This document shows positions 8,674 through 34,406 of a stretch of DNA of 48,740 nt, piece by piece. Both the position numbers and the translations under genes were made by a program. This stretch comes from an uncultured Propionivibrio sp. Lineage in GTDB: Bacteria > Pseudomonadota > Gammaproteobacteria > Burkholderiales > Rhodocyclaceae. The notes beneath the pieces are model-generated. The model was not told where the DNA came from. It saw nothing but the letters and a program-made list of their open reading frames with translations, and ran no database searches. The stretch lies in NCBI GenBank assembly GCA_937923255.1, contig CALAIL010000041.1, positions 1-48,740 on the forward strand. Reading direction: 5' to 3'. Positions within the stretch are counted from its first letter, which is position 1, and each line of letters begins with the position of its first letter.

Positions 8674-8837
8674 CCTCACGACCGTGCCGCCGCCCGCATT
8701 TTCCGGCCGGGTCATGGCTGCGCCCCAATCGCCCTCATTCATGCATCTTGCGGGATAGACGGCCGGAAACGCCCAATCCACGCGGGTTACAGGGCAGCAG
8801 GCTGGAAATGCCCAATTCACGCGGGGTTCCGGGCAGC
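8639..8837. repeat. 200-bp direct duplication, copy A (overlaps FHA 3' end)
   Basis: This copy begins in the last 35 bases of the FHA gene and runs through a downstream spacer into two REP-like units (GGAAACGCCCAATCCACGCG and GGAAATGCCCAATTCACGCG). It aligns nearly without gaps to 8892-9089. Both share the tracts GTGCCGCCGCCC, CGCCCCAATCGCCCTCATT and ATGCATCTTGCGGGATAG. Confidence 0.9.
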
Positions 8838-8891
8838 GGGTTAGAAATAACCAATCTGTGCAGATGTTCGATGCAGGCCCGACCACCCCAT

Positions 8892-9089
8892 AGATCGGGT
8901 TTCAGATCAACCGCGCGGGGCCATAGCATCACAACAGTGCCGCCGCCCACATTCCAGGCGGGTGCATGGCCGCGCCCCAATCGCCCTCATTTATGCATCT
9001 TGCGGGATAGCCGGCCGGAAACGCCCAATCCACGCGGGTTACAGGGCAGCAGGCTGGAAATGCCCAATTCACGCGGGGTTCCGGGCAGC
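8892..9089. repeat. 200-bp direct duplication, copy B
   Basis: Second copy of 8639-8837, offset by 252-253 bases. It carries a decayed FHA gene tail (GGTTTCAGATCAACCGCGCG) without the rest of the gene. The two copies are separated by 54 bases of unrelated spacer. Confidence 0.9.
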
Positions 9090-16239: not shown

Positions 16240-16746
16240 TCAAACTCCGAAAAATTGCACGATGGCCAGCACCAGAATCGCATAACAGGCGGCGAACAGG
16301 TCGTCGGCCATAACGCCAAAACCATTCTTCACCTGCGTATCGAAATACCGGGCCGGTTGCGGCTTAACGATGTCGAAAAAGCGAAACAGCAAAAACGCCG
16401 CGCCTTGCCACGCCCAGCCCGGCGGGCAGCAGAACAGCACCAGCCAGAACGGCACAATTTCATCCCAGACGATGCTCCCGTGATCGACCGCGCCCAGATC
16501 GGCACCTGTTTTCTGCACGGCCGGCACGCCGAGAGCAAAGCACACGGCCAAAAGGCCCGCCAACTGCGCATCGCCCAGCCACGCCCGCAGCGGCAGAAAC
16601 AAGGCCCAGGCCAGCAGCGTCCCGACCGTCCCCGGCGCCAGCGGCGACAGGCCGCTGCCAAAACCGCAGGCGACAAAATGCGCCGGATGCGAAAAGAGAA
16701 AACGCAAGGACGGCGCCTTACGGTGCGGGATATCGATGTCGGACAT
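16240..16746 (-). CDS. pgpA: Phosphatidylglycerophosphatase A
   Basis: Inner-membrane enzyme dephosphorylating phosphatidylglycerophosphate to phosphatidylglycerol. The 168-residue product has GSGLSPLAPGTVGTL, DHGSIVWDEIV (metal site) and FRFFDIVKPQPARYFD with VKNGFGVMADDLFA, plus several membrane helices. thiL would normally lie just upstream; here three membrane-protein paralogues intervene. Its first 16 codons reappear as two fossils at 17962-18009 and 19213-19260. Confidence 0.95.
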   Translation of the reverse strand: MSDIDIPHRKAPSLRFLFSHPAHFVACGFGSGLSPLAPGTVGTLLAWALFLPLRAWLGDAQLAGLLAVCFALGVPAVQKTGADLGAVDHGSIVWDEIVPFWLVLFCCPPGWAWQGAAFLLFRFFDIVKPQPARYFDTQVKNGFGVMADDLFAACYAILVLAIVQFFGV

Positions 16747-16758
16747 ATCAATGCATGC

Positions 16759-16775
16759 CTTTTAACCGTTAAAAG
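16759..16775. repeat. Palindrome between paralogue 1 and pgpA
   Basis: CTTTTAAC-C-GTTAAAAG, 8-base arms around one base, 12 bases upstream of the pgpA start. It could be a small hairpin or an operator. The fossil pgpA starts at the other two junctions lack it. Confidence 0.6.
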
Positions 16776-16797
16776 CAAGGAAAATAAATCCCGGCGC

Positions 16798-17820
16798 TCA
16801 TAAAAACAGATCCAAAAGCGACCACAATATTACAAACAATATTAAACAACATTGCGCTATTCTAATCTTTCGCTTCTGCTGAGATTCCCTACGATTTAAC
16901 TCATCTGCAATTATCTTACAATCTTCTTCGCACTGCTTTAATTGCTCCAACTGATCAGGCAAAAATTCATTCTTTTGCCCATCTTTTATATTGACACTAT
17001 TTTCAGAAATACGCCTTATTGCCCCATTATATGCATCAGAAAAGAATGGATTCCAATCATACTGGCGCCCCGTGGACTTTTCCCAAAGCAAATTAGCCGC
17101 CATTTCAATCGTTTCCGGGGCCTTATGTTTACTATTACTATTTAGTGCAATAGTAATAGTAAAATAATTGGTATGGGCACGCACCAGACCCAAATAAATA
17201 AGTATTCTCCGTATCCAACGTTTTTCCAATATAGACTGGCTATTTTCAACATAAAAATATAAAGTGTAATAACGTGAGTCAAATCTACTTGAATAGGACG
17301 AAAGATAAATACCAAAAACCTGGTGCCAGGGAATAAAGCCATATCGAGGTGTAAAAAAGCCGTCCCGACTCAACTCACACGCAGGCTTTCCTAGATAAGG
17401 AATAAAATCAAAAGAATACAAAACTGCCATAACCAGTATGCAGCTACTTACTAATATAATTTTCCAACTTACCAGATTTAATATTTCCCCATCATATATC
17501 AGCATAAGCCCTATTACAATAATAAACAGACTAAATAGAAACATACCTGGAAGTCTTTCAGCGCCAGTTTTTAATACTTTTCCAGCAGGCCAGAAACTTA
17601 TTTCTATCAGTTCGCGTATTTCCTGTTTCGCTTTTTGAATATATCTTTTTTCTCGATTATTTAAATATTTTTTATCTAGAATATTTACGCATATAATTAT
17701 CCCCAAGCCTAAACCAATAGCGATAGCAGCCATAGCTATATCGCTATAGACTTTTGCTATTCCGACACCAAGCATTAATATCCCTGGCAATAATAACAAC
17801 ATAATTATTACACGTAACAT
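16798..17820 (-). CDS. AT-rich membrane protein, paralogue 1 (STM3941-like)
   Basis: Function unknown. The 340-residue protein has two N-terminal membrane helices (from MLRVIIMLLLLPG), a short basic loop (KKYLNNREKRYIQKAKQE), two more helices, and a soluble core with LGKPACELSRDGFFTPRYGF, IPWHQVFGIYLSSY, FYVENSQSILEKRW and TIALNSNS. A charged coiled segment and a final hydrophobic helix follow. The core resembles the PH-like STM3941 family, by eye only. The ATG at 17820 is used because MLRVI is conserved in all three copies. Base composition is far more AT-rich than the neighbours, pointing to acquisition. It sits between thiL and pgpA. Confidence 0.75.
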   Translation of the reverse strand: MLRVIIMLLLLPGILMLGVGIAKVYSDIAMAAIAIGLGLGIIICVNILDKKYLNNREKRYIQKAKQEIRELIEISFWPAGKVLKTGAERLPGMFLFSLFIIVIGLMLIYDGEILNLVSWKIILVSSCILVMAVLYSFDFIPYLGKPACELSRDGFFTPRYGFIPWHQVFGIYLSSYSSRFDSRYYTLYFYVENSQSILEKRWIRRILIYLGLVRAHTNYFTITIALNSNSKHKAPETIEMAANLLWEKSTGRQYDWNPFFSDAYNGAIRRISENSVNIKDGQKNEFLPDQLEQLKQCEEDCKIIADELNRRESQQKRKIRIAQCCLILFVILWSLLDLFL

Positions 17821-17930
17821 TTCAGTCAAATAATAAATAAAAGTTGATTGATTCGGACAATTTAGATACTTAAATCTTTTAAATTAACAACTTATCATAA
17901 ACTGCAACGTTGCATTAACCAATAAGTGTT

Positions 17931-17952
17931 TATATTCTGCCGTCAGAATATA
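17931..17952. repeat. Conserved hairpin upstream of paralogue 1
   Basis: TATATTCTG-CCGT-CAGAATATA, a perfect 9-base stem with a 4-base loop. The same hairpin occurs upstream of paralogue 2 (19182-19203) with the loop CCAT. It could be a weak terminator or processing site between copies. Confidence 0.7.
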
Positions 17953-17961
17953 CGGGATTAC

Positions 17962-18009
17962 CTAGAATTTCATACGTGCTTTACGAGGCGGGATATCGAT
18001 GCCGGGCAT
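17962..18009 (-). pseudogene. Fossil of the pgpA start, copy 1
   Basis: The minus strand reads MPGIDIPPRKARMKF then TAG, against the PgpA start MSDIDIPHRKAPSLRF. The sequence ATGCATTGATATG around the start is also shared with pgpA. It shows that an ancestral duplication unit ran from the membrane gene into pgpA. It may now be only a spacer or a 15-codon leader. Confidence 0.8.
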
Positions 18010-18055
18010 ATCAATGCATTTTAGCAATATTGAAAAAAGGAAATGGATTCCGCAC

Positions 18056-19075
18056 TTATGAAAAAATCCCCTTCAAAAATGGCCATAATAGCGTAGCCAA
18101 TATTCCAAATATCAATAGCCTAGTTAACCACTTAATTTTGGATTCATAACGACAAAGTTCATTTTCTATTATCTTGAGATCTCTGAGATTTTCCTCAAAT
18201 TTCTGCTCCCAATCATGCATAGAGCCATTCTCTTGCACATCCATATTGATACTATTTTCTGAAATACGTCTTACCGCATCATTGTACGCATCGGAAAGCC
18301 ATGGTTTCCAATCATACTGGCGCCCCGTGGCCTTATTCCAAAGCAATTTAGCCACCGCTCCAATTGTTTCTGGCGTCTCGTATTTACTATTACTATTTAA
18401 TGCAATAGCAATATTAAAATAATTAGCATGGGCATGCACCAAACCTAAATAAACAAGCATTCTCTGCACCCAACGTTTTTCTATTATAGACTGGCTATTT
18501 TCAACATGAAAATATAAAGTATAATGACGCAAATCAAACCTATCTGAATAAGACGAAAGAGCAATACCAAAAACCTGGCACCAGGGAATAAAACCCCATC
18601 GGGGTGTAAAAAATCCGTCCCGACTCAGCTCGCACGCAGGTTTTCCCAAATAAGGAATAGAATTAAAAAAATACAGAGCCGCCATAACTAGTATGCAACC
18701 ACTTGCTAATATAATTTCCAAACTTACCGGATCTGATATCATTTCATTGTATATTAGTATAGAACCTATCACAATAATAAATAAACTAAATAAAAATATA
18801 CCAAGATTTATTTCCGGGTCGGTTCTCAATACTTTTCCAGCAGGCCAGGAACTTATTTTCATCAGTTTGTGTATTTCCTCCTTTACTTTTTGAGTATGTT
18901 TTCTTTCTCGCTTCTTTAAATATTTTTCATCTAGAATATTTGCGTATCTTATTGTCAAAAAACCCAGGCCAATAACAACAGCAGCAATAGCCATATCGCG
19001 AAATCCTATTATCAGTCCGGCAGTAATTATTATTACTCCCAGCAATGATAATAATGTACTTATTACACGCAACAT
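18056..19075 (-). CDS. AT-rich membrane protein, paralogue 2 (STM3941-like)
   Basis: Function unknown. At 339 residues it is collinear with paralogue 1: N-terminal helix pair from MLRVISTLLSLLGV, basic loop KKYLKKRERKHTQKVKEE, second helix pair, core LGKPACELSRDGFFTPRWGF and IPWCQVFGIALSSYSDRFD, then YFHVENSQSIIEKRW and IALNSNSKYETPETI. A charged stretch and one C-terminal helix close it. The ATG at 19075 matches the conserved start. Like its neighbours it is strongly AT-rich. It probably shares a transcript with paralogues 1 and 3, though the hairpins between copies may modulate this. Confidence 0.75.
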   Translation of the reverse strand: MLRVISTLLSLLGVIIITAGLIIGFRDMAIAAVVIGLGFLTIRYANILDEKYLKKRERKHTQKVKEEIHKLMKISSWPAGKVLRTDPEINLGIFLFSLFIIVIGSILIYNEMISDPVSLEIILASGCILVMAALYFFNSIPYLGKPACELSRDGFFTPRWGFIPWCQVFGIALSSYSDRFDLRHYTLYFHVENSQSIIEKRWVQRMLVYLGLVHAHANYFNIAIALNSNSKYETPETIGAVAKLLWNKATGRQYDWKPWLSDAYNDAVRRISENSINMDVQENGSMHDWEQKFEENLRDLKIIENELCRYESKIKWLTRLLIFGILATLLWPFLKGIFS

Positions 19076-19181
19076 TTCAGTCAAATAATAAATAAAAATT
19101 GATTTGGACAATTTGGATATTCAAGCTTTTTAAGTTATCAGCTTATCATAAACTGTAGTATTGCATTAACTAATAAGCATT

Positions 19182-19203
19182 TATATTCTGCCATCAGAAT
19201 ATA
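19182..19203. repeat. Conserved hairpin upstream of paralogue 2
   Basis: TATATTCTG-CCAT-CAGAATATA, the second copy of the 9-base-stem hairpin at 17931. The arms are identical and the loop differs at one base. Confidence 0.7.
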
Positions 19204-19212
19204 CGGGATTAC

Positions 19213-19260
19213 CTAGAATTTCATACGTGCTTTACAAGGCGGGATATCGATACCGGACAT
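19213..19260 (-). pseudogene. Fossil of the pgpA start, copy 2
   Basis: The minus strand reads MSGIDIPPCKARMKF then TAG. It is closely similar to the fossil at 17962-18009 and to the first codons of pgpA. The start codons of pgpA and the two fossils are 1263 and 1251 bases apart, which gives the period of the tandem array. Confidence 0.8.
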
Positions 19261-19308
19261 ATCAATACACTTTAGCAATGTTGAAAACAAAGGAGATGAA
19301 TCCTGCGT

Positions 19309-20469
19309 TCATGAAAAAAACTTCTTCAGAAGTGACAATAATATTACAGTCAATATCAAACAATACTGCGCTATTCTATCTATCCGCTTCCGCTGAGATT
19401 CTTCACGATTCAATTCGTCAGTAATTATCTTTAAAGATTCTTCGTTTGATTTGAGTTTTTCTAGCAAATCAAGCAGAATCTTATCCTCTTGATCGTCTTC
19501 CATATTGACGCTGCTTTCTGAAATACGCTTTACCCCCTCACTATACTCATCAAAAAAGAATGGATTCCAACCATGCGGCCGCCCTGTAGCCTTTTCCCAA
19601 AGGAATCTGGTCATAATTTCAATCGTTTCCGGCGTCTCATGTTTACTATGTAATATAATAACAATATTAAAATCATCGTCTTGAGTACGCACCAAACCCA
19701 AATAAATAAGCACTCTCCGCATCCAGCGTTTCTTCAAAATAGACTGGCTATTTTTGATGCGAAAATCTAAAGAATAATGACACGAGCCAAATATGCCGGT
19801 ATGGGTCCAAAGATGAATACCAAGAACTTGATGCCAGGGAATAAAACCCCATCGAGGCGTAAAAAAGCCATCCTGACTCAGCTCAAATGCTGGCTTTCCC
19901 AGATAAAAAATAATTCTAGAGAGATACAAAACTGCTACGACCAGCATGCAACCACTTGCTAATATAATTTCCCAGCTTACCGGATTTAATGTCATTCCTT
20001 TACGTATCAGTATGGGGCCCATCACGATAAAAAACAGGCTAAACAAAAACATACCGAGATCTAGTTCAGAGTCGGTTTTTAACACTTTTCCAGTAGGCCA
20101 TGAACTTATTTCCCTCAGTTTGTTCCATTCTTGTTTCATTTTTTGAGTATGTCTTCTTTCTCGCTCCTGCAAATATTTTTTATCTAGAGTATTTGCATAT
20201 ATAATTATCGCAAAGCCCAAGCTAATAACAACAGCACTTATAGCCATATCGCGATAGCCTGTCGCCGTTCCGACGCCAATTATTATTATCCCCAGCGCCA
20301 ATAGCAATAATTTTTTATTTAGAACATTCACGTACCTGATTATTACCAAACCCAGTCCAACAACGATAGCAACCATAGCTATAGAGGTTTCGTGATTGCT
20401 TATCGCCATCCCGATGCCAATTATTATTAGTCCTGACAGTAATAACAATATACTTATTACACGCAACAT
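19309..20469 (-). CDS. AT-rich membrane protein, paralogue 3 with duplicated helix pair
   Basis: Function unknown. At 386 residues it is 46 longer than its paralogues because the first membrane-helix pair is doubled: LLLLSGLIIIGIGMA..VNVLNKK (about 8-53) is repeated as LLLLALGIIIIGVGTA..ANTLDKK (about 54-98). The rest is collinear: LGKPAFELSQDGFFTPRWGF, IPWHQVLGIHLW, FRIKNSQSILKKRW, a charged segment and a C-terminal helix. It follows thiL after about 110 bases. The copy is the most divergent of the three in the soluble part (IVIILHSKHETPE). Confidence 0.75.
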   Translation of the reverse strand: MLRVISILLLLSGLIIIGIGMAISNHETSIAMVAIVVGLGLVIIRYVNVLNKKLLLLALGIIIIGVGTATGYRDMAISAVVISLGFAIIIYANTLDKKYLQERERRHTQKMKQEWNKLREISSWPTGKVLKTDSELDLGMFLFSLFFIVMGPILIRKGMTLNPVSWEIILASGCMLVVAVLYLSRIIFYLGKPAFELSQDGFFTPRWGFIPWHQVLGIHLWTHTGIFGSCHYSLDFRIKNSQSILKKRWMRRVLIYLGLVRTQDDDFNIVIILHSKHETPETIEIMTRFLWEKATGRPHGWNPFFFDEYSEGVKRISESSVNMEDDQEDKILLDLLEKLKSNEESLKIITDELNREESQRKRIDRIAQYCLILTVILLSLLKKFFS

Positions 20470-20578
20470 TTTAGTTAAATAACAAATAAAGATTGATTGA
20501 TTTGGACAATTTAGATATTCAAGCCTTTTAAGTTACCGGCTTATCACAAATTTCTCGCATATTTTGCCTTTTCAAACT

Positions 20579-21586
20579 TCAAGCTGACTCAAAATGATCG
20601 AAACCCCGGCGTTGCGGCGTAACGCGCTGGCCGTCGGCATCGATAAGATTCACCGCGCCGGGTACATCATCCTGCCCAACTGCGCCCCCCTGACCGGCCG
20701 CGCTTACCTGCCCGATCCGCCAGAGCGGCAGGTCGAGCCGCGCGGCAAGTGCGGCAAGCGCGGCGCGCCGATCGGGCGCGGCCGTAAAAGCCAATTCGTA
20801 ATCGTCGCCGCCGGCGAGCTGGCAATCACGCGCCAGCACCGGATCGGCCCCCGCCGGGAGGCACGGCAGGTGCGCCATCCACACGTCGATGCAGCAGCGC
20901 GAACGCTCGGCGATATGGCCGACATCCGCCAGCAGACCGTCGGAAACGTCGATCGCGGCGTGCGCCAGAGCGTCCTGACGCAAGGCCAGCCCCAGCTCGA
21001 CGCGCGGCAGCGGCCGCTGCAAGGCTTCGACACAACGCTTCGCCAGCGCGGCAGGCAGCGCCGTGCGGCCTTGCAGATGCGCCAGCCCCAGCGCCGCCAG
21101 CCCCGGCTGCCCGGACACCCACAGGTCGTCGCCGGCTTGCGCGCCGTCGCGCCGCAAAGCCGCGCCGGCGGGGGCTTCGCCAATGGCCGTGACGCAGAAG
21201 TTGAGCGGCCCGCGCGTCGTGTCGCCACCGATGAGGTCGACGCCATAACGCCCGGCGCAGGCAAAAAGGCCCTCGGCAAACGCCGCCAGCCAGGCCTCAT
21301 CGGCCTGCGGCAGACTGCCGGCGAGCAGGATCCAGCGCGGCCGCGCGCCCATAGCGGCGAGGTCGGAAAGATTGACCGCCAGCGTTTTCCAGCCCAGCTG
21401 GCGCGGGTCAGTCTCCGGCAAAAAATGCGTGCCGGAAACCAGCATATCGGTCGTGATCGCCAGTTCCATGCCCGGCGCGGGCGCGATTAGGGCGCAATCG
21501 TCACCGGGGCCGAGCGCGGTCTGCGGCGTCGGGCGGGCAAAATAACGGTCGATCAGGGCAAATTCGGCGCGTTTTTCAGAGGTCAT
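20579..21586 (-). CDS. thiL: Thiamine-monophosphate kinase
   Basis: ATP-dependent phosphorylation of thiamine monophosphate to the diphosphate coenzyme. The 335-residue product has GPGDDCAL (GDD at 28-30), TTDMLVSGTHF, VNLSDLAAMGARP, GGDTTRGP (120-127) and IDVSDGLLADVGH. Its normal partners are nusB upstream and pgpA downstream; here a 1.3-kb repeat field and the paralogue array separate it from both. Confidence 0.96.
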   Translation of the reverse strand: MTSEKRAEFALIDRYFARPTPQTALGPGDDCALIAPAPGMELAITTDMLVSGTHFLPETDPRQLGWKTLAVNLSDLAAMGARPRWILLAGSLPQADEAWLAAFAEGLFACAGRYGVDLIGGDTTRGPLNFCVTAIGEAPAGAALRRDGAQAGDDLWVSGQPGLAALGLAHLQGRTALPAALAKRCVEALQRPLPRVELGLALRQDALAHAAIDVSDGLLADVGHIAERSRCCIDVWMAHLPCLPAGADPVLARDCQLAGGDDYELAFTAAPDRRAALAALAARLDLPLWRIGQVSAAGQGGAVGQDDVPGAVNLIDADGQRVTPQRRGFDHFESA

Positions 21587-22924
21587 GGCGCGATGTTATA
21601 CGATTCGGCTACGGCGCGGCAGCCCGCCAACAAAGGGAAAAACGGGAAAGGCAATGCCCGGAAGCCCGCGTATTTAGGGCTTTTCCACCGAGGCTGCCCG
21701 ACAAGGCGCATGGATGGGGTCACGCAGCATCACTTGCCCGTAAGTCCGCTATTCATAAGGCTCCCAAAGATGCCTGCCATCAAGCCCAGTATCCATGCGG
21801 CTTCCAGAGAGTCCTACCCTCAAGCTCACTATCCATAAGCCTTTCAGAGATACCTACCCGCAAACCCTTTATCCATAAGCTTTCCAGAGGCACCTGCCCG
21901 CAAACGCCCTAAATACACGGACTTCAACGTGGTTTGATACGGCGGGTGTGTTGGGTGCACTAGAGACGCTGGATGCGTTGGATGGGATAACCAATGGCCT
22001 GGCGGCAGGACGGAGCCGCGCCGGCAATGCAGCGCCCCCTGCCCGCAAGCCCGGTACTCATGTGGTCTTCAGAGACACCTACCCGAAAAACCACTATCCA
22101 TAAGCCTCCCAGAGATCACTGCTCGCAAGCCCAGTATTCATGCGGCTTCTGGAGACGCCTACCCGAAAACCCTTTATCCATAAGCCTTCCAGAGGCACCT
22201 GCCCGCAAACGCCCTAAATACACGGGCTTCAGCGGGGTTTCTATACGGTGGATGCGCAGGGTAAGGTCGTTGCCCAGCCTAGCAGTTTTTCCGTGCGCGG
22301 ATGTGCTGGGTGTGCGTGGTGTGCTCGATACTCTGGGTGCGCCGGGCGCGTTCAGTTGCGTGCATTAGACGCGAATGACCGGCGGATTGGCGGAAGGACG
22401 AAGCCGCGCCGGCAATGCGGCAGCCCGCTGGCAATGGGAAAAACGGGAAAGGCAATGCCCGGAAGCCCGCGTATTTAGGGACTCTCCGCCGAGGCTGCCC
22501 GGCAAGACGCATGGATAGGGTAACGCAGCATCCTCGCCCGTAAGTCCGCTATTCATAAGCCTCCCAGAGATGCCTGCCTGCAAGTCCAGTACTCATGCGG
22601 TCTTCAGCGACACCTACCCAAAAAACCACTATCCATGAGGACTCCAGAGACACTCACCCGAAATCCCTTTATCCACAAGGGTTTCAGAGACCCATGCCCG
22701 CAAACCCTTTATCCATAAGCCTTTCAGAGGCACCTGCCCGCAAACGCCCTAAATACGCGGGCTTCAGCGGGGCTTCGATACGGCGGGTGAGCGGGGTAAG
22801 GTCGTTGCCCAGCCTAGTAGTTTTTCCGCGCACGGATGTGCTGGGTGCGCTAGATGCGCCGTGTGCGTTAGATGGGGATCACCGGCGGGCAGGCGATCTT
22901 TTACGCACCGCCCACGCCGTGGGG
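21587..22924. repeat. 1.3-kb REP-like repeat field between nusB and thiL
   Basis: The gap is filled with palindromic units of the CGCCCTAAATACRCGGGCTTCAG and TATCCATAAGCCTTYCAGAG types. Larger blocks are duplicated: about 21640-21775 matches 22432-22575 (AACGGGAAAGGCAATGCCCG onward), about 22198-22310 matches 22737-22850 (GTAAGGTCGTTGCCCAGCCT included), and 21898-21960 is a shorter copy of the latter. No ORF is credible on either strand. Confidence 0.85.
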
Positions 22925-24235: not shown

Positions 24236-25387
24236 TTAAGCGGCCGGCGCCGACGATGGCGGCAATGCATCCGCCTCGCCAGGCCGCGTGATGTAGCCGG
24301 TGACCTCCAGGCCAAACCCAGCCATGCTCGGGATGCGGCGGGGGCTGCCCAGCAGGCGCATTTTGCGCACGCCGAGATCGCGCAGAATCTGCGCGCCGAT
24401 GCCGAAAATGTGCGGGTCCCAGCGCGTCGCATGCGTTTCGCGCGGCGTCGCCTGCGCCTTCAGGATATCCGCGCCGCTTTCCGGGCTGCGCAGCAGCACG
24501 ATCACGCCCGATTCGCTGCGCGCCAGCAGATGCAGGGCGTCGTTGAGCGAAAAAGTATGGCGGCTGTTATCGAGATCGAGAAAATCGAGCACGCTGAGCG
24601 GTTCATGGACACGCACCAGCGTTTCCCTGTCCGGCGCGATCTCGCCACGGGTCAGCGCCAGATGCACGTCGTTGGCGGCGCGGTCGGCGTAGGCATGCAG
24701 GATAAACTCGCCGTACACCGTCCGCACCGGTTTCGAGAAACAGCGTTCGACCAGCGTCTCATGGCGGCTGCGGAATTCTATGAGATCGGCGATCGTGCCG
24801 ACTTTCAGCCCATGATGCGCGGCGAATTCAAGCAGATCAGGCAGGCGCGCCATAGTGCCGTCCTCGCGCAGCACCTCGCAGATTACGGACGCCGGCTCCA
24901 GGCCGGCCATCTGCGCCAGATCGCAGCCCGCCTCGGTATGGCCGGCACGCACCAGCACGCCGCCTTCGCGCGCGATGATCGGGAAAACATGCCCGGGCTG
25001 CACCACATCTTCCGGCCGGGCATGACGCGCCACGGCAGCCTGCACGGTGCGCGCGCGGTCGTGCGCCGAAATGCCGGTGGTCACGCCTTTGGCGGCTTCG
25101 ATCGAAACGGTAAAGGCGGTGTGAAAGGGGCTGCGGTTATCACGCGCCATCGGCGTCAGCCCCAGCTGGCGCGCGCGCGCCGCCGTCAGGGTCAAACAGA
25201 CAAGGCCGCGCGCATGCGTCACCATGAAATTGATCGCATCCGGCGTAATGTGTTCGGCGGCGATCAGCAGATCCCCTTCGTTTTCGCGGTCTTCCTCATC
25301 GACGAGGATCACCATGCGACCGTTGCGCAGTTCGGCGACGATCTCCTCGATCGGCGCGATGGCCGACGATGCGCGCTCGGGCGACAT
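24236..25387 (-). CDS. ribBA: 3,4-dihydroxy-2-butanone-4-phosphate synthase with degenerate GTP cyclohydrolase II domain
   Basis: The N-terminal RibB domain (about 1-205) looks active: DEEDRENEGDL (30-40), THARGLVCL, GVTTGISAHDRA, GHTEAGCDL (148-156). The C-terminal half has the RibA fold (HLALTRGEI, LVRVHEPLSVLDF, YGIGAQIL-like FGIGAQILRDLGVRKMRLL) but the zinc cysteines and GTP-site motifs of cyclohydrolase II are missing. It should therefore supply only the dihydroxybutanone branch, with a separate ribA elsewhere. The start overlaps the ribE stop (TGATG). Confidence 0.95.
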   Translation of the reverse strand: MSPERASSAIAPIEEIVAELRNGRMVILVDEEDRENEGDLLIAAEHITPDAINFMVTHARGLVCLTLTAARARQLGLTPMARDNRSPFHTAFTVSIEAAKGVTTGISAHDRARTVQAAVARHARPEDVVQPGHVFPIIAREGGVLVRAGHTEAGCDLAQMAGLEPASVICEVLREDGTMARLPDLLEFAAHHGLKVGTIADLIEFRSRHETLVERCFSKPVRTVYGEFILHAYADRAANDVHLALTRGEIAPDRETLVRVHEPLSVLDFLDLDNSRHTFSLNDALHLLARSESGVIVLLRSPESGADILKAQATPRETHATRWDPHIFGIGAQILRDLGVRKMRLLGSPRRIPSMAGFGLEVTGYITRPGEADALPPSSAPAA

Positions 25388-26019
25388 CAGTGCGCCTCCT
25401 GGGAATTATCGCCATCGCCGGCTTCGTCGGCGTTCAGCATGCGCTCGACGTAGCGCGCGATCAGGTCGACTTCCAGATTGACGGCATCGCCCACTTTGAG
25501 TTCGCCCAGCGTCGTTGCCGTCAGGGTGTGGGGAATCAGGTTGATGGAAAAATCCGCCGCCTCAACCGTGTTGGTGGTCAGGCTGACGCCATTGACGGTA
25601 ATCGACCCTTTGCGCGCGATATACCGCGCCAGCGCCGCCGGCGCGCGGATGACAAGCAGGCGGTTGTCGCCCAGCGCATCGAAGCGCAGCACCCGACCGA
25701 CGCCGTCGACGTGGCCGGAAACAAGATGCCCGCCCAGCCGATCAGAGAGGCGCAGCGCCTTTTCCAGATTGATGGCGCCCGGTGCGGCCAGCCCGACGGT
25801 GCAGGAAAGCGTTTCCGGCGAGACATCGACGCTGAAGGTCGTGTCCTTCATCTCGACGACGGTGAGGCAGACGCCGTTACAGGCAATCGAATCGCCGATG
25901 GCGACATCGGCCAAATCCAGCGCGCCGGCCTCGATGGTCAGACGCACGGTTGATGCGCCGTCGTTACGCGGCGTCAGAGCAGTAATGCGGCCTATGGCCG
26001 CGATGATTCCGGAAAACAT
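25387..26019 (-). CDS. ribE: Riboflavin synthase alpha subunit
   Basis: Dismutates two lumazine molecules to riboflavin. The 210-residue product starts MFSGIIAAIGRI and holds two lumazine-binding repeats (SIACNGVCLTV and SITVNGVSLTT are the equivalent strands). It is the first gene of the minus-strand block; no ribD precedes it and no FMN riboswitch was recognised upstream. Confidence 0.96.
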   Translation of the reverse strand: MFSGIIAAIGRITALTPRNDGASTVRLTIEAGALDLADVAIGDSIACNGVCLTVVEMKDTTFSVDVSPETLSCTVGLAAPGAINLEKALRLSDRLGGHLVSGHVDGVGRVLRFDALGDNRLLVIRAPAALARYIARKGSITVNGVSLTTNTVEAADFSINLIPHTLTATTLGELKVGDAVNLEVDLIARYVERMLNADEAGDGDNSQEAH

Positions 26020-26115
26020 GGCAAGAGCGTTTCACAGCGATCAAAAGATAGCGGTGATTCTAGCATTGCCGCTCCACGCGCGTCGCGGGGAAGCCAATGA
26101 ACATCGACGTACCCC

Positions 26116-26217
26116 CTGCCCACCGCGCGCGCAGAAAGAAAGTTCGCTGCCGGCTTGCGGCACGACAGCTTCAAACAGCATCTCCTGCCCACCGCGCGCG
26201 CAGAAAGAAAGTTCGCT
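26116..26217. repeat. 33-bp direct repeat pair upstream of ribE
   Basis: The 33-base sequence beginning CTGCCCACCGCGCGCGCAGA and ending AAGAAAGTTCGCT is present at 26116-26148 and, apparently identical, at 26185-26217, period 69. A degenerate third form (GCGCGGGGCGGAAAGAAAGG) lies at 26260-26280. Confidence 0.85.
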
Positions 26218-26256
26218 ATCCACGCTGAAGAACTCCCGCTGCAGCCACCTGTCGCC
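26201..26256. repeat. Flanking direct repeat, left copy
   Basis: CAGAAAGAAAGTTCGCTATC followed by CACGCTGAAGAACTCCCGCT and a CACCTGTCGCCT end. It matches 27289-27345 with a few differences and one small gap. The pair encloses the Fic antitoxin island. Confidence 0.75.
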
Positions 26257-26281
26257 TTGTGCGCGGGGCGGAAAGAAAGGT

Positions 26282-26507
26282 CCAATCATTGCCGGCTGCT
26301 ACGGTTGGATGATATTCACCTGGCTTAACATCATCAAAGCCTAAGCCGAGCAACTCATTGAAAAATACGGCGGTTAATTTCTTTTAGGTGTGCTGCATCG
26401 AAGTCGCCACGCACTGGACTAGCACGCAGATCAATGATACGAAAAGCCATCTGCTCAGCTTCTAACGCATACCTCTCTTGAGGGGTCAGCGTCAGCTTAT
26501 CGCTCAT
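26282..26507 (-). pseudogene. fic toxin remnant (frameshifted and 3'-truncated)
   Basis: The intact frame (26355-26507) encodes 50 residues, MSDKLTLTPQERYALEAEQM up to AAHLKEINRRIFQ, then TGA. Reading on in the next frame gives ELLGLGFDDVKPGEYHPTVA and AGNDW, the natural continuation of Fic N-terminal sequence, so an extra T in CAATGAG (probably once CAAGAG) caused a frameshift. Homology stops near 26282 at the flanking repeat, before the HPFxxGNG active site. The ATG overlaps the antitoxin stop, as in antitoxin-toxin operons. The toxin is dead. Confidence 0.72.
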
Positions 26508-26820
26508 GGCGATAGCCTTTAACAAGCTCTTCTATGCTAATTTCGCCATTGATGTAGCGGAGTGCATGCTGCTCTGCAGCTTCGCTAAGTTTGAAGCCTT
26601 CCAGTCCGACGGAAGCACGTGCATACTTGAAGGCTTCTTCTCTGCGCTCGCGCTCTTCTGGCGAAATGGATGCCGTGCGGTTACGCACTTGCTGCACATA
26701 GTTACTCATCAACTCGCGCAATACTTGCACGGCCGGGCGGTGATCTGCCTCGGCTGCACTGTAAAAATTGGCTTGAAGCTCTGCCTCAACTTGAAATGTC
26801 ATGGTGGCTTCTTTAGTCAT
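26497..26820 (-). CDS. Class I Fic antitoxin (VbhA-like)
   Basis: A 107-residue protein in two parts. The N-terminus (TFQVEAELQANFYSAAEADH and RPAVQVLRELMSNYVQQV) resembles a RelB/ribbon-helix-helix DNA-binding segment. The C-terminus YARASVGLEGFKLS carries the Fic inhibition motif S-xxx-E-G at Ser70, Glu74 and Gly75, followed by a helix (INGEISIEELVKGY) like the VbhA tail. In the family this glutamate blocks ATP binding in the Fic toxin. TAGGAG lies just upstream of the ATG. Its toxin is the broken gene downstream. Family assignment is by motif, not by search. Confidence 0.75.
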   Translation of the reverse strand: MTKEATMTFQVEAELQANFYSAAEADHRPAVQVLRELMSNYVQQVRNRTASISPEERERREEAFKYARASVGLEGFKLSEAAEQHALRYINGEISIEELVKGYRHER

Positions 26821-26836
26821 AACTTGCTCCTATATT

Positions 26837-27220
26837 TCAACTCGCTGCCGTCAACAAATTCAAACATACACGGGAAATTTCAACCTCTTCATCCTGCCCG
26901 TTGTCCTCGTATCTGATAAATATCCAACCGTCTTTTGATGGCCTACGATTCAGCAGCAACATGACAGCACGTGCATTGTAAATACCCAAAAGCAAAGGTT
27001 TCTTCAAGGTCATTGAGTCAGACATAGCAGGCTTCTGCTCTTTTTCGATGTCGGAATTGTGGTACGGAAGCTTGCTTGCCGCATCACCATCGCTACCGCT
27101 ATCAGAAACTTCGTCATGACGAAGTTTTTTACTGCCTGTTTCTACTATTACATCCGAAAGTGCATCTTCATCTGTCTTGTTAGGCAGTAGGGCAGTGGGA
27201 TTCCGCAGACTTTCTTCCAA
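26837..27220 (-). CDS. Hypothetical protein in Fic antitoxin island
   Basis: I do not recognise this gene. The 127-residue product has an acidic, Ser/Asp-rich middle (KLRHDEVSDSGSDGDAASKL) and a hydrophobic then basic C-terminal part (LGIYNARAVMLLLNRRPSKD and GWIFIRYEDNGQDEEVEISR). The start is a TTG with AGGAG 10 bases upstream. In frame, coding-like sequence (KEQDITRRSIAI) continues upstream to a TAA near 27270, so the gene may be 5'-truncated at the flanking repeat. It reads toward the antitoxin, 17 bases away, and may form an operon with it. Confidence 0.5.
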   Translation of the reverse strand: MEESLRNPTALLPNKTDEDALSDVIVETGSKKLRHDEVSDSGSDGDAASKLPYHNSDIEKEQKPAMSDSMTLKKPLLLGIYNARAVMLLLNRRPSKDGWIFIRYEDNGQDEEVEISRVCLNLLTAAS

Positions 27221-27288
27221 AATCGCGATACTCCTGCGAGTAATGTCCTGTTCTTTATTGGCAACCCAAGATTAAACCTGCTCGGGAA

Positions 27289-27345
27289 AATGAAAGAAAG
27301 TTTGTTATCACGCTGAAGAACTCCCGCTGTAGTTTCCTGCCGCCT
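27289..27345. repeat. Flanking direct repeat, right copy
   Basis: ATGAAAGAAAGTTTGTTATC followed by CACGCTGAAGAACTCCCGCT and a CCTGCCGCCT end, matching 26201-26256. Together they bracket about 1.05 kb of lower-GC sequence. Confidence 0.75.
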
Positions 27346-27433
27346 CGCACGCGGGTGCGGGCGCCGCCATAGCTCTCACGCATATCCATCATCCATAGAC
27401 AGGCACTCATGCTACCAAACGGAGAAAGGCCGT

Positions 27434-27486
27434 ATGCCGCATCCACCGCCCGTTTCGGACAAGAGCGCTGATGGTGGATACGGCAT
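27434..27486. promoter_or_regulatory. 14-base inverted repeat upstream of the MFS gene
   Basis: ATGCCGCATCCACC (27434-27447) and GGTGGATACGGCAT (27473-27486) pair at 13 of 14 positions around a 25-base loop. It stands about 150 bases before the MFS start and could be an operator or a transcript hairpin. The rest of the 27346-27632 gap shows no gene. Confidence 0.5.
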
Positions 27487-32468: not shown

Positions 32469-32814
32469 CGTGATGCCGTACTCAGTCCTCCCCCTCACAG
32501 GCAGCGCAAGGCGTAGGATTTCGTACGATTTGTATGATTCGGCAAAATTCCTGCCTCGTGCACCGGCGCGGAACAGCATATCCTGCACCTGGGGAAATGC
32601 GCACCCAGCCGCATAGTGCTGAACCTGCGATATGCGCCAATCACTTTCTGCCATCCCGTAATCGCCGCCGGTCTGAACAACCGGCGGCCGGGCGCAGCCG
32701 CATCCACGCGCTTGCGCAGATCAAGCTGCCCCATTCTTGGCCCCGCCTTCCTGGCCGGCGAGCCAGCGCCGTGCCGGAACTGGCGCCTGCCGTCATACCC
32801 CCTCGGCTGAAGCC

Positions 32815-32925
32815 CGCGTCTTTTGGGCGTTTCCGGGCAGCCATGCCGGAAACCCACGTCCCTTGGGCATTTCCGAGCAGCCATCGCCAGAACCCGCGTC
32901 CTATAAGGCGTTCCGGGCAGAAGGC
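32815..32925. repeat. REP-like cluster joined to the lrp fragment
   Basis: Units TTGGGCGTTTCCGGGCAGCC, GGAAACCCACGTCCCTTGGG and CCTATAAGGCGTTCCGGGCA in series. The last unit runs directly into the lrp duplicate through the shared bases CCGGGCAG. A close copy of the whole cluster is at 34568-34680. The 32469-32814 part of this gap shows no gene. Confidence 0.8.
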
Positions 32926-33073
32926 CGACTACCAGCTCAAGGTCATCGTGCCCGACATGGACGCCTTTCAGGAACTGCTGCTCAACCGCATCACGCGCAT
33001 TCCGGGCGTGACCGGCGTGCATTCGAGCTTTGTCCTGCGCCGGGTCGTCGACCGCACCGACGTGCCGGTGTAG
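32913..33073 (+). pseudogene. 3' fragment of the Lrp-family gene
   Basis: 161 bases aligned without gaps to 31100-31260 of the lrp gene, with about nine differences, most in the last six codons. It encodes GQKADYQLKVIVPDMDAF through RRVVDRTDVPV and a TAG stop, that is the last third of the RAM domain, with no HTH and no start. Open upstream frame comes only from repeats. Confidence 0.9.
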
Positions 33074-33120
33074 CCGATTTCGCCGGATTTACACCTTCAA
33101 ACCTTAACTTGTCCTATTTC

Positions 33121-33193
33121 TTAGTTAAGAAAAATGGATTAACCTTAACTAAGAAAAACGCTTAGTTAAGGGAAATCGGATAACTTTAACTAA
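33121..33193. promoter_or_regulatory. Two tandem palindromes upstream of fic
   Basis: TTAGTTAA (33121-33128) faces TTAACTAA (33145-33152), and the same arrangement recurs at 33162-33169 and 33186-33193: two 32-base inverted repeats with a 41-base period. They end 80 bases before the fic ATG. A dimeric regulator, possibly the Fic protein itself through its C-terminal winged helix, could bind them. Confidence 0.65.
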
Positions 33194-33195
33194 CA
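33167..33195. repeat. Direct repeat flanking fic, left
   Basis: TAAGGGAAATCGG followed by ATAACTTTAACTAACA. It matches 34404-34432 with five differences in 29 bases; the right copy begins at the fic stop codon. Confidence 0.6.
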
Positions 33196-33272
33196 CAGGC
33201 GCTTAAGTTAAACTAATCGCCACCCAGCCCACATTCCATCATTCCATCTATCCGGCGCCGCCCATCTTGCCT

Positions 33273-34406
33273 ATGAAATTCGAGAACTTCACCCCCGGCC
33301 GCTGGCAGCAGCGCCTGCAATATAAGAGCTTTGAACCCGTTCCGGTCAATCATGACTGGGCCTGGGAAGACCCACAAATCAACCTGCTGCTGGAATCCGC
33401 CAACCGCGCGCTGGGCGAACTCAATGCTTTTTCGTTGATCGTGCCGGATATTGACCTGTTCATTGCAATGCACGTAGTCAAGGAAGCGCAAACCTCCAGC
33501 CGCATCGAAGGCACGCGCACAAGCATTGACGAAGCCGTCCTGCCCGAAGAGCAAATCACCCCCGAAAAACGCGATGACTGGCACGAAGTCAATAACTACG
33601 TCGAGGCCGTCAATTACGCCATAGCCGAGCTGCATAGCCTGCCGCTATCCAACCGTCTGCTGCGTCAAACCCATACCATTTTGATGCGCGGCGTACGCGG
33701 GCAGCACAAGCAGCCCGGCGAATTCCGCATCAGTCAAAACTGGATTGGTGGCTCCAGCCTCGCCGATGCCGCGTTCATCCCCCCGCATCACGACAATGTG
33801 CCGGAACTGATGGGCGATCTGGAAAAATTCTGGCACAACGAAGCCATTACCTTGCCGCACCTGATTCGGGTGGCGATCAGCCATTACCAGTTCGAAACCA
33901 TTCACCCGTTTTTCGACGGCAACGGCCGCATCGGCCGCCTGTTGATTCCGCTTTATCTAGTCAGCAATGGCCTGCTAGCCAAACCCTCGCTCTATCTGTC
34001 GGATTTCTTCGAGCGCAACCGGGGCAGCTACTACGATGCGCTGACCCGCGTGCGCACTTCCGGCGACCTGATTCACTGGGTGCGTTTTTTTCTGCAAGGC
34101 GTTGCCGAAACCTCGATCAAAGGGCGCGAAACGTTCAGAAAAATTCTTGCCTTACGCACAGAGGCGGAGCAGCGCATCCTGAGCCTGGGCAAACGCGCGC
34201 CCAATGCACATACCGCACTGAACCTGCTATACAGCCGCCCCATCATCGCCGCCGCCAATCTGGAACAAGCGCTTGGCGTATCCACGCCCACGGCGCAGGC
34301 CTTGATCAAAGATCTGGTTCGCCTCGACATTCTGAGCGAAATCACCGGCCAGAAACGCGCCCGGCTGTACTCCTTCAAATCCTACCTCGACCTGTTCCTT
34401 GGCTAA
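33273..34406 (+). CDS. Fic family protein (class II, self-inhibited AMP transferase)
   Basis: A 377-residue Fic protein that should transfer AMP (or another nucleotide phosphate) to target hydroxyls. The inhibitory helix SSRIEG (75-80, S-xxx-E-G) lies N-terminal to the Fic core, which defines class II. The active site HPFFDGNGRIGR (211-222) is intact, with catalytic His211. The C-terminal 90 residues form a winged helix (LEQALGVSTPTAQALIKDLV). The ATG at 33273 is preferred to a TTG two codons earlier. It is flanked by 29-base direct repeats and preceded by tandem palindromes. Confidence 0.93.
   Translation: MKFENFTPGRWQQRLQYKSFEPVPVNHDWAWEDPQINLLLESANRALGELNAFSLIVPDIDLFIAMHVVKEAQTSSRIEGTRTSIDEAVLPEEQITPEKRDDWHEVNNYVEAVNYAIAELHSLPLSNRLLRQTHTILMRGVRGQHKQPGEFRISQNWIGGSSLADAAFIPPHHDNVPELMGDLEKFWHNEAITLPHLIRVAISHYQFETIHPFFDGNGRIGRLLIPLYLVSNGLLAKPSLYLSDFFERNRGSYYDALTRVRTSGDLIHWVRFFLQGVAETSIKGRETFRKILALRTEAEQRILSLGKRAPNAHTALNLLYSRPIIAAANLEQALGVSTPTAQALIKDLVRLDILSEITGQKRARLYSFKSYLDLFLG

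Follow-up and report, generated by a model that had tools for sequence, protein, structure and literature searches.

A tandem array of three AT-rich membrane-protein genes between thiL and pgpA in a relative of Propionivibrio, a possible immunity locus

How did three AT-rich genes come to stand between thiL and pgpA, and what might their products do? The question is raised by positions 16747-20578 of a stretch of 48,740 nucleotides (nt) from contig CALAIL010000041.1 (assembly GCA_937923255.1), the whole of which is referred to here as the window. An earlier interpretation based on the letters alone (the sequence-only reading) had described the locus as a triplicated membrane-protein gene inserted in an operon and had suggested selection for variants and, as a possibility, a sensor role or one in defence or competition. 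Our analysis confirms the array: its membrane-protein family is undescribed, the near relatives surveyed lack it, and its simplest history is expansion on the spot. A role of the array in protection from toxins is possible, and we put it forward tentatively.

Organization and base composition of the locus

The order of the genes on the minus strand is thiL, orf3, orf2, orf1, pgpA, cinA and recA. The RecA encoded in the window is 92% identical to that of Propionivibrio limicola and, judged from the sequence, the source lineage is a relative of Propionivibrio (Rhodocyclales). The array and its immediate flanks comprise the following genes:

16240-16746, minus strand: pgpA, intact downstream flank and source of the copied 5' end
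16798-17820, minus strand: orf1, 340 amino acids (aa) from an ATG, open frame; predicted membrane protein with a pleckstrin homology (PH)-like core; copy closest to pgpA
18056-19075, minus strand: orf2, 339 aa, open frame; middle copy
19309-20469, minus strand: orf3, 386 aa, open frame; copy closest to thiL, with a predicted extra N-terminal helix pair
20579-21586, minus strand: thiL, intact upstream flank; product 73% identical to P. limicola ThiL

The two flanking genes are undamaged, with 3832 bp between them, in agreement with the insertion described in the sequence-only reading. Its three collinear paralogues of 339 to 386 aa were also recovered, with pairwise protein identities of 58.0, 61.1 and 61.4% (61% for orf1 with either orf2 or orf3) and nucleotide identities of 73 to 76% over aligned codons. 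An alternative TTG start is possible for orf1 at 17829. The contrast in composition is as marked as had been claimed: the GC contents of orf1, orf2 and orf3 are 35.0, 35.6 and 38.1%, respectively, compared with 59.7 to 69.5% for thiL, pgpA, cinA and recA, and third-position GC is 30 to 37% in the array versus 73 to 78% in the flanking genes. Taken as a whole, 16747-20578 has a GC content of 35.7%, and the remainder of the window one of 61.8%.

Stubs of pgpA in the spacers

The main repeats of the array start 1253 to 1255 nt apart. Each of the two spacers between the genes holds an inverted repeat and an altered copy of the 5' end of pgpA, and a further duplication lies inside orf3:

17836-18036, minus strand: spacer/leader between orf2 and orf1, 86% identical to the other spacer over 201 nt (repeat D6)
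17931-17952, minus strand: inverted repeat in the orf2-orf1 spacer, 9-bp arms and 4-nt loop (I4), predicted hairpin
17962-18009, minus strand: altered copy of the pgpA 5' end before orf1, 88% over 42 nt (repeat D11), 15-codon open reading frame (ORF) with a stop
19087-19287, minus strand: spacer/leader between orf3 and orf2, 86% identical to the other spacer over 201 nt (repeat D6)
19182-19203, minus strand: inverted repeat in the orf3-orf2 spacer, 9-bp arms and 4-nt loop (I4), predicted hairpin
19213-19260, minus strand: altered copy of the pgpA 5' end before orf2, 81% over 42 nt (repeat D11), 15-codon ORF with a stop
20175-20383, minus strand: in-frame internal duplication in orf3 (second hairpin; repeat D7, fourth copy, 135-nt spacing)

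The stub before orf1 translates as MPGIDIPPRKARMKF and the one before orf2 as MSGIDIPPCKARMKF, each followed by a stop, and pgpA itself reads MSDIDIPHRKAPSLRF. The core pattern of the stubs, with up to two mismatches allowed, rendered three matches in the window and none in 100 shuffles; the same search of the window found no third stub on the thiL side of orf3. Both stubs depart from pgpA identically after about codon 11.

Because both spacers carry an altered pgpA 5' end, the simplest origin of the copies is a tandem duplication at this site that broke within pgpA. The departure that the two stubs have in common beyond about codon 11 points to a single event whose product was then duplicated. 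We prefer a single gene with tandem duplications over three independent insertions, the order of events being the one that we infer from the repeats.

The spacers of units A and B agree at 179 of 202 positions aligned with MAFFT, compared with 44 of 67 fourfold-degenerate sites between orf3 and orf2 (Fisher p, 5e-5), a conservation that may reflect either selection or homogenization by recombination. The spacer was also considered as a structured RNA and rejected as such, as whole-spacer folding was no better than that of shuffles (z, -0.6 to -0.9). Within orf3, the two copies of the duplicated hairpin are identical at 51 of 74 nt, and the gene encodes two extra hydrophobic segments compared with the other copies.

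The thiL-pgpA junction in other genomes

The sequence-only reading took thiL and pgpA to be normally adjacent. This was found to hold close to the source lineage. The pgpA of the window had a match in 367 of 395 genomes of the P. limicola family, and the best 30 loci were examined; in all of them the distance between aligned thiL and aligned pgpA is -23 to +37 bp. None of these 30 nearest loci contains a relative of orf1-3, and in none is a single housekeeping gene of matching composition present at this place. Adjacency is less strict in a wider set of 80 loci, 63 of which hold both thiL and pgpA: the gap is at most 50 bp in 27 of the 63 and at most 300 bp in 55, but it reaches 541 to 7643 bp in the remaining 8 (L021, L024, L025, L029, L049, L052, L053 and L065). 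Other lineages, as these eight loci show, do sometimes carry different inserts at the junction. None of the 80 wider-set loci carries a relative of the orf1-3 proteins, and the insert is, as far as these genomes show, particular to this lineage. Among publications judged by their titles, no account of a paralogue insertion at thiL-pgpA was found.

Homologues, mosaic structure and distribution

Protein searches rendered 13, 4 and 17 clusters, amounting to 22 distinct identifiers that include P0001 (orf2) and P0014 (the L081 protein); in the searches yielding 4 and 17 clusters, scoring was confined to the 7998 candidates that shared the most words. Two clusters come close to array copies, P0006 to orf1 (94.7% identity) and P0010 to orf3 (97.7%). 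Distinct and mosaic homologues occur among the clusters, as seen at the protein level. For example, P0002 and P0003 agree at a fraction of 0.43 of the variable columns ahead of residue 139 and of 0.96 beyond it, P0012 resembles P0005 at its front and P0011 at its back, and P0009 resembles P0002 at its front and P0004 in its middle. A maximum chi-square analysis was performed at the protein level on 12 full-length proteins with 300 permutations, leaving out P0009 and P0012 as partial. The strongest break fell at residue 139, immediately N-terminal of the YLGKP core, and 17 of 66 pairs reached the permutation floor of 1/301, a result that points to recombination at conserved blocks. P0013, a chimera-like homologue of 229 aa with an unrelated first half, was left out of the alignments, as it looks like the product of a chimeric 881-bp contig. 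Single mosaics among the others could be assembly chimeras too; P0003 is unlikely to be one, because it has 39 member sequences. From the proteins, the homologue genes appear to recombine near the conserved core, wherever their loci lie.

Matches were found in 1 of the 395 family genomes with the first alignment and in 4 with a wider one. The clear match, G223 (E value, 9e-129 with a profile that includes G223's own protein), has a single such gene in its genome, with 50% GC in a 2.4-kb locus of 58% GC, and the other three are weak relatives of 274 to 281 aa. A sample of 399 genomes of the order yielded one weak match (L112; E, 3e-4). No relative was found in 28 genomes of the genus of P. limicola, a search that had no positive to validate its empty answer. 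A profile scan of genome contigs confirmed 0 of 50 pattern matches, and profiles confirmed 0 of 106 and 0 of 18 in viral contigs, where the inverted-repeat pattern of the spacers did not occur either. Plasmids gave no match by tblastn of P0020 or by blastn of 17800-20580, and tblastn of orf2 found no relative in 50,697 phage records. Weak array relatives of 274 to 281 aa at L114 and L115 stand directly before genes that, by eye, are thiS and thiG; the nearness of these relatives to thiS-thiG and of the array to thiL is probably a coincidence.

Constraint on the coding sequences

Synonymous divergence (dS) among orf1-3 is 0.46 to 0.62 in pairwise comparisons, and the ratio of non-synonymous to synonymous divergence (dN/dS), computed by two methods with an experimental Biopython module, is 0.45 to 0.62. 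All three frames are open despite this dS. As noticed before, divergence spares the core: entropy is lowest in the helix after the PH core (0.59 bits) and in the PH core itself (0.60 bits), and highest in the C-terminal helix (0.98 bits). The two core motifs quoted in the sequence-only reading, the second of which is IPWHQVFGI, are both exact in orf1, but orf2 has only the first and orf3 neither of them exactly. As for the proposed selection for variants, the mosaic structure of the homologues is in its favour, whereas the dN/dS values are not.

Family membership and predicted structure

Neither Pfam, its bacterial PH (bPH) models included, nor NCBIfam gave a match above curated cut-offs for orf1-3, and the best PHROGs match (E, 0.0087) was to a family of unknown function. 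PADLOC, whose output has no cut-off, aligned 56 residues of orf2 with REase_II, a type II restriction enzyme (15.5 bits; E, 0.0026), and listed orf1 with 10.4 bits (E, 0.078) and orf3 with nothing; these matches, both weak and partial, were not taken as convincing. DUF443 (PF04276), a family linked to TsaI and considered on account of that precedent, is unsupported as well, with 7.4 bits for orf1 (E, 4.6) compared with a cut-off of 26.2, and orf2 and orf3 unlisted.

The STM3941 family (NF041635) had been named as a candidate. The three proteins themselves do not reach its model, being unlisted at E values up to 10 and below the curated cut-off of 40 bits, but some of their relatives match it below the cut-off: P0016 with 22.9 bits (E, 6.6e-5), P0017 with 19.7 bits (E, 6e-4) and, these two included, 4 of the 14 members of alignment A5 at E values of 0.01 or less (best, 1.3e-5). 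Profile comparison was weak with STM3941-like proteins (L118, E 0.09; L117, E 0.028) and rendered an E value of 3.9e-7 with L114, a 274-aa relative. The two families may have in common a helix pair followed by a GKP...G...P..G.IPW core; unlike STM3941, the array proteins have an extra N-terminal hairpin and a C-terminal helix, which bring them to roughly double the length of the 157-position model. These likenesses suggest that the array family is a distant relative of STM3941. The STM3941 family was found in none of 4 genomes and, below the cut-off, in 5 of 150, with matches in 0 of 14 control genomes. At 1414-3084 of L117, an STM3941-like stretch (E, 6e-8) fronts an apparent protease of the rhomboid type, recognised as such by eye.

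The structure of orf2 was modelled with a predicted local distance difference test (pLDDT) score of 78.3 and a predicted template modelling (pTM) score of 0.66; an earlier model from a 14-row alignment was poor (pLDDT, 48.9) and was dropped. The model suggests two membrane hairpins, the second of which interrupts a PH-like domain, and a C-terminal membrane helix is predicted after a helical linker, as in an inner-membrane protein whose soluble part would most likely be cytoplasmic. Together with the hydrophobicity, it supports the layout of two helix pairs, PH-like core and C-terminal helix given in the sequence-only reading. A sequence search of solved structures yielded nothing at E values below 0.05. 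Membrane helices with a bacterial PH domain also occur in YdbS/YdbT and DdE/DdF, which PMC8657885 ties to a membrane-active bacteriocin, their described role being its export.

Possible function of the array

By analogy with known systems, the array may work like a small homogeneous polyimmunity locus of the esaG or tipC kind, a possibility that we favour tentatively. In a Rhodocyclales bacterium, a foreign-looking AT-rich gene would have come to lie between thiL and pgpA and been duplicated there in tandem, with one breakpoint within the first dozen codons of pgpA. Each new unit, made of leader, gene and pgpA 5' end, would have left a pgpA stub between copies. The copies would stay open, diverge most at their ends and be reshuffled by recombination at the conserved core, probably also via the conserved spacers. 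The competitors' membrane-acting toxins or bacteriocins would each be countered by a different variant membrane protein, which would bind the toxin or shield the toxin's membrane target. We regard as doubtful the more specific proposal that these proteins are split-PH membrane immunity factors, that the pgpA-derived spacers supply the homology for unequal crossing-over, and that a generator of variants is housed in this way within a core operon.

Immunity comes into consideration because the tandem unlike copies, the conserved core and spacer blocks and the mosaic relatives resemble esaG and tipC. According to PMC9484751, esaG forms tandem paralogues with conserved core and spacer blocks, mosaics and changes in copy number, and tipC recombines at conserved blocks. 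These arrays, which belong to type VII secretion in Firmicutes, share with the present one tandem non-identical paralogues, conserved blocks in the genes and mosaics, and in esaG the conserved blocks extend to the spacers as they do here. Unlike them, the array described here encodes predicted multi-pass membrane PH-like proteins, in a Gram-negative host and in only three copies; its spacers hold the stub of a housekeeping gene, and no toxin or secretion genes were recognised in the ORF list of the window. As in homogeneous polyimmunity loci, defined in PMC3482391, the locus is dominated by tandem paralogues of one type (three here), and variants may differ between genomes. Both membership of orf1-3 in an Imm family and toxin neutralisation by them would be assigned by analogy.

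Several points weigh against an immunity function. The copy number is only three, dN/dS below 1 denotes no surplus of non-synonymous change, and the weaker pairs in the maximum chi-square analysis may only reflect uneven rates along the gene. Foldseek rendered no match at E values of 0.001 or less in PDB or BFVD, and the ORF lists of the window, inspected with no family search of the other genes, showed nothing recognisable as a toxin, a secretion gene or a recombinase beside the array. As to the known systems, little recombination was found in tsaI (PMC9484751), nearly all known immunity proteins are cytoplasmic and globular (PMC3482391), and, in the enterocin DD14 cluster, the PH-domain proteins DdE/DdF are tied to export and not to immunity (PMC8657885).

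Other explanations have to be considered alongside this one. A membrane hairpin set within a PH-like domain, as the model suggests, would recall EROS (CYBC1), a split-PH membrane chaperone, and the array could encode lineage-specific EROS-like factors for membrane stress or membrane-protein assembly, which would help client membrane proteins to fold or persist, with copies specialised on different clients; we consider this unlikely. We judge equally unlikely a near-neutral expansion, in which a horizontally acquired gene was copied through chance recombination and retained by drift or because it did no harm, with no shared system behind it. A dN/dS of about 0.5 would fit such a history, as would the lack of a recognised partner gene and the single copy in G223, the sole clear distant relative; nevertheless, three frames are open after a dS of about 0.5, the spacers are more conserved than silent sites, and the homologues are mosaic, with those nearly identical to orf1 (94.7%) and orf3 (97.7%) elsewhere suggesting persistence.

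An array of anti-phage or abortive-infection membrane effectors would agree with the foreign composition, the membrane helices joined to a soluble domain and the variation between homologues. It is nonetheless improbable, given that PADLOC produced only two weak partial matches, that no effector domain was seen, and that relatives were lacking from the phage records (tblastn of orf2) and from viral contigs (profile). More improbable still is a site-specific mobile cassette that attaches at the start of pgpA, each arrival rebuilding the pgpA 5' end. Such a cassette would account for the AT-rich insert and for the 42-nt pgpA-like repeat that closes each unit on its downstream side, but the repeat is missing from the thiL side of orf3, the changes shared by the stubs point to one event and duplication, no recombinase was recognised, and there was no plasmid or viral match.

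Should the immunity reading be right, a membrane-protein fold would join the repertoire of tandem recombining self-protection genes, and would do so in an environmental Gram-negative lineage. Such an array could then establish itself within a core operon and leave the pgpA stubs behind as a legible scar of duplication, by which the order of events can be tested in further strains.

Other features of the window

No Rfam family matched the window at gathering scores, and a tRNA scan of it found none. Promoter and terminator scans were not used, as their counts were close to the means of shuffles (16 versus 14.0, standard deviation 3.9, and 8 versus 5.1, standard deviation 2.2). Tandem repeats of about 40 nt lie outside the main genes at 8766-9089, 21742-22745, 32809-32920 and 33120-33211, and are most extensive between thiL and nusB. 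At 26115-26217 and 26221-27355, between an ORF at 25387-26019 and another starting at 27471, there are a 34-nt exact direct repeat and a 47-nt repeat (83%). Finally, the ORF at 33267-34406 reads as a Fic-family protein and contains HPFFDGNGRIGR, which we take to be the signature of that family; GC in the interval 33001-34000 is 54%.

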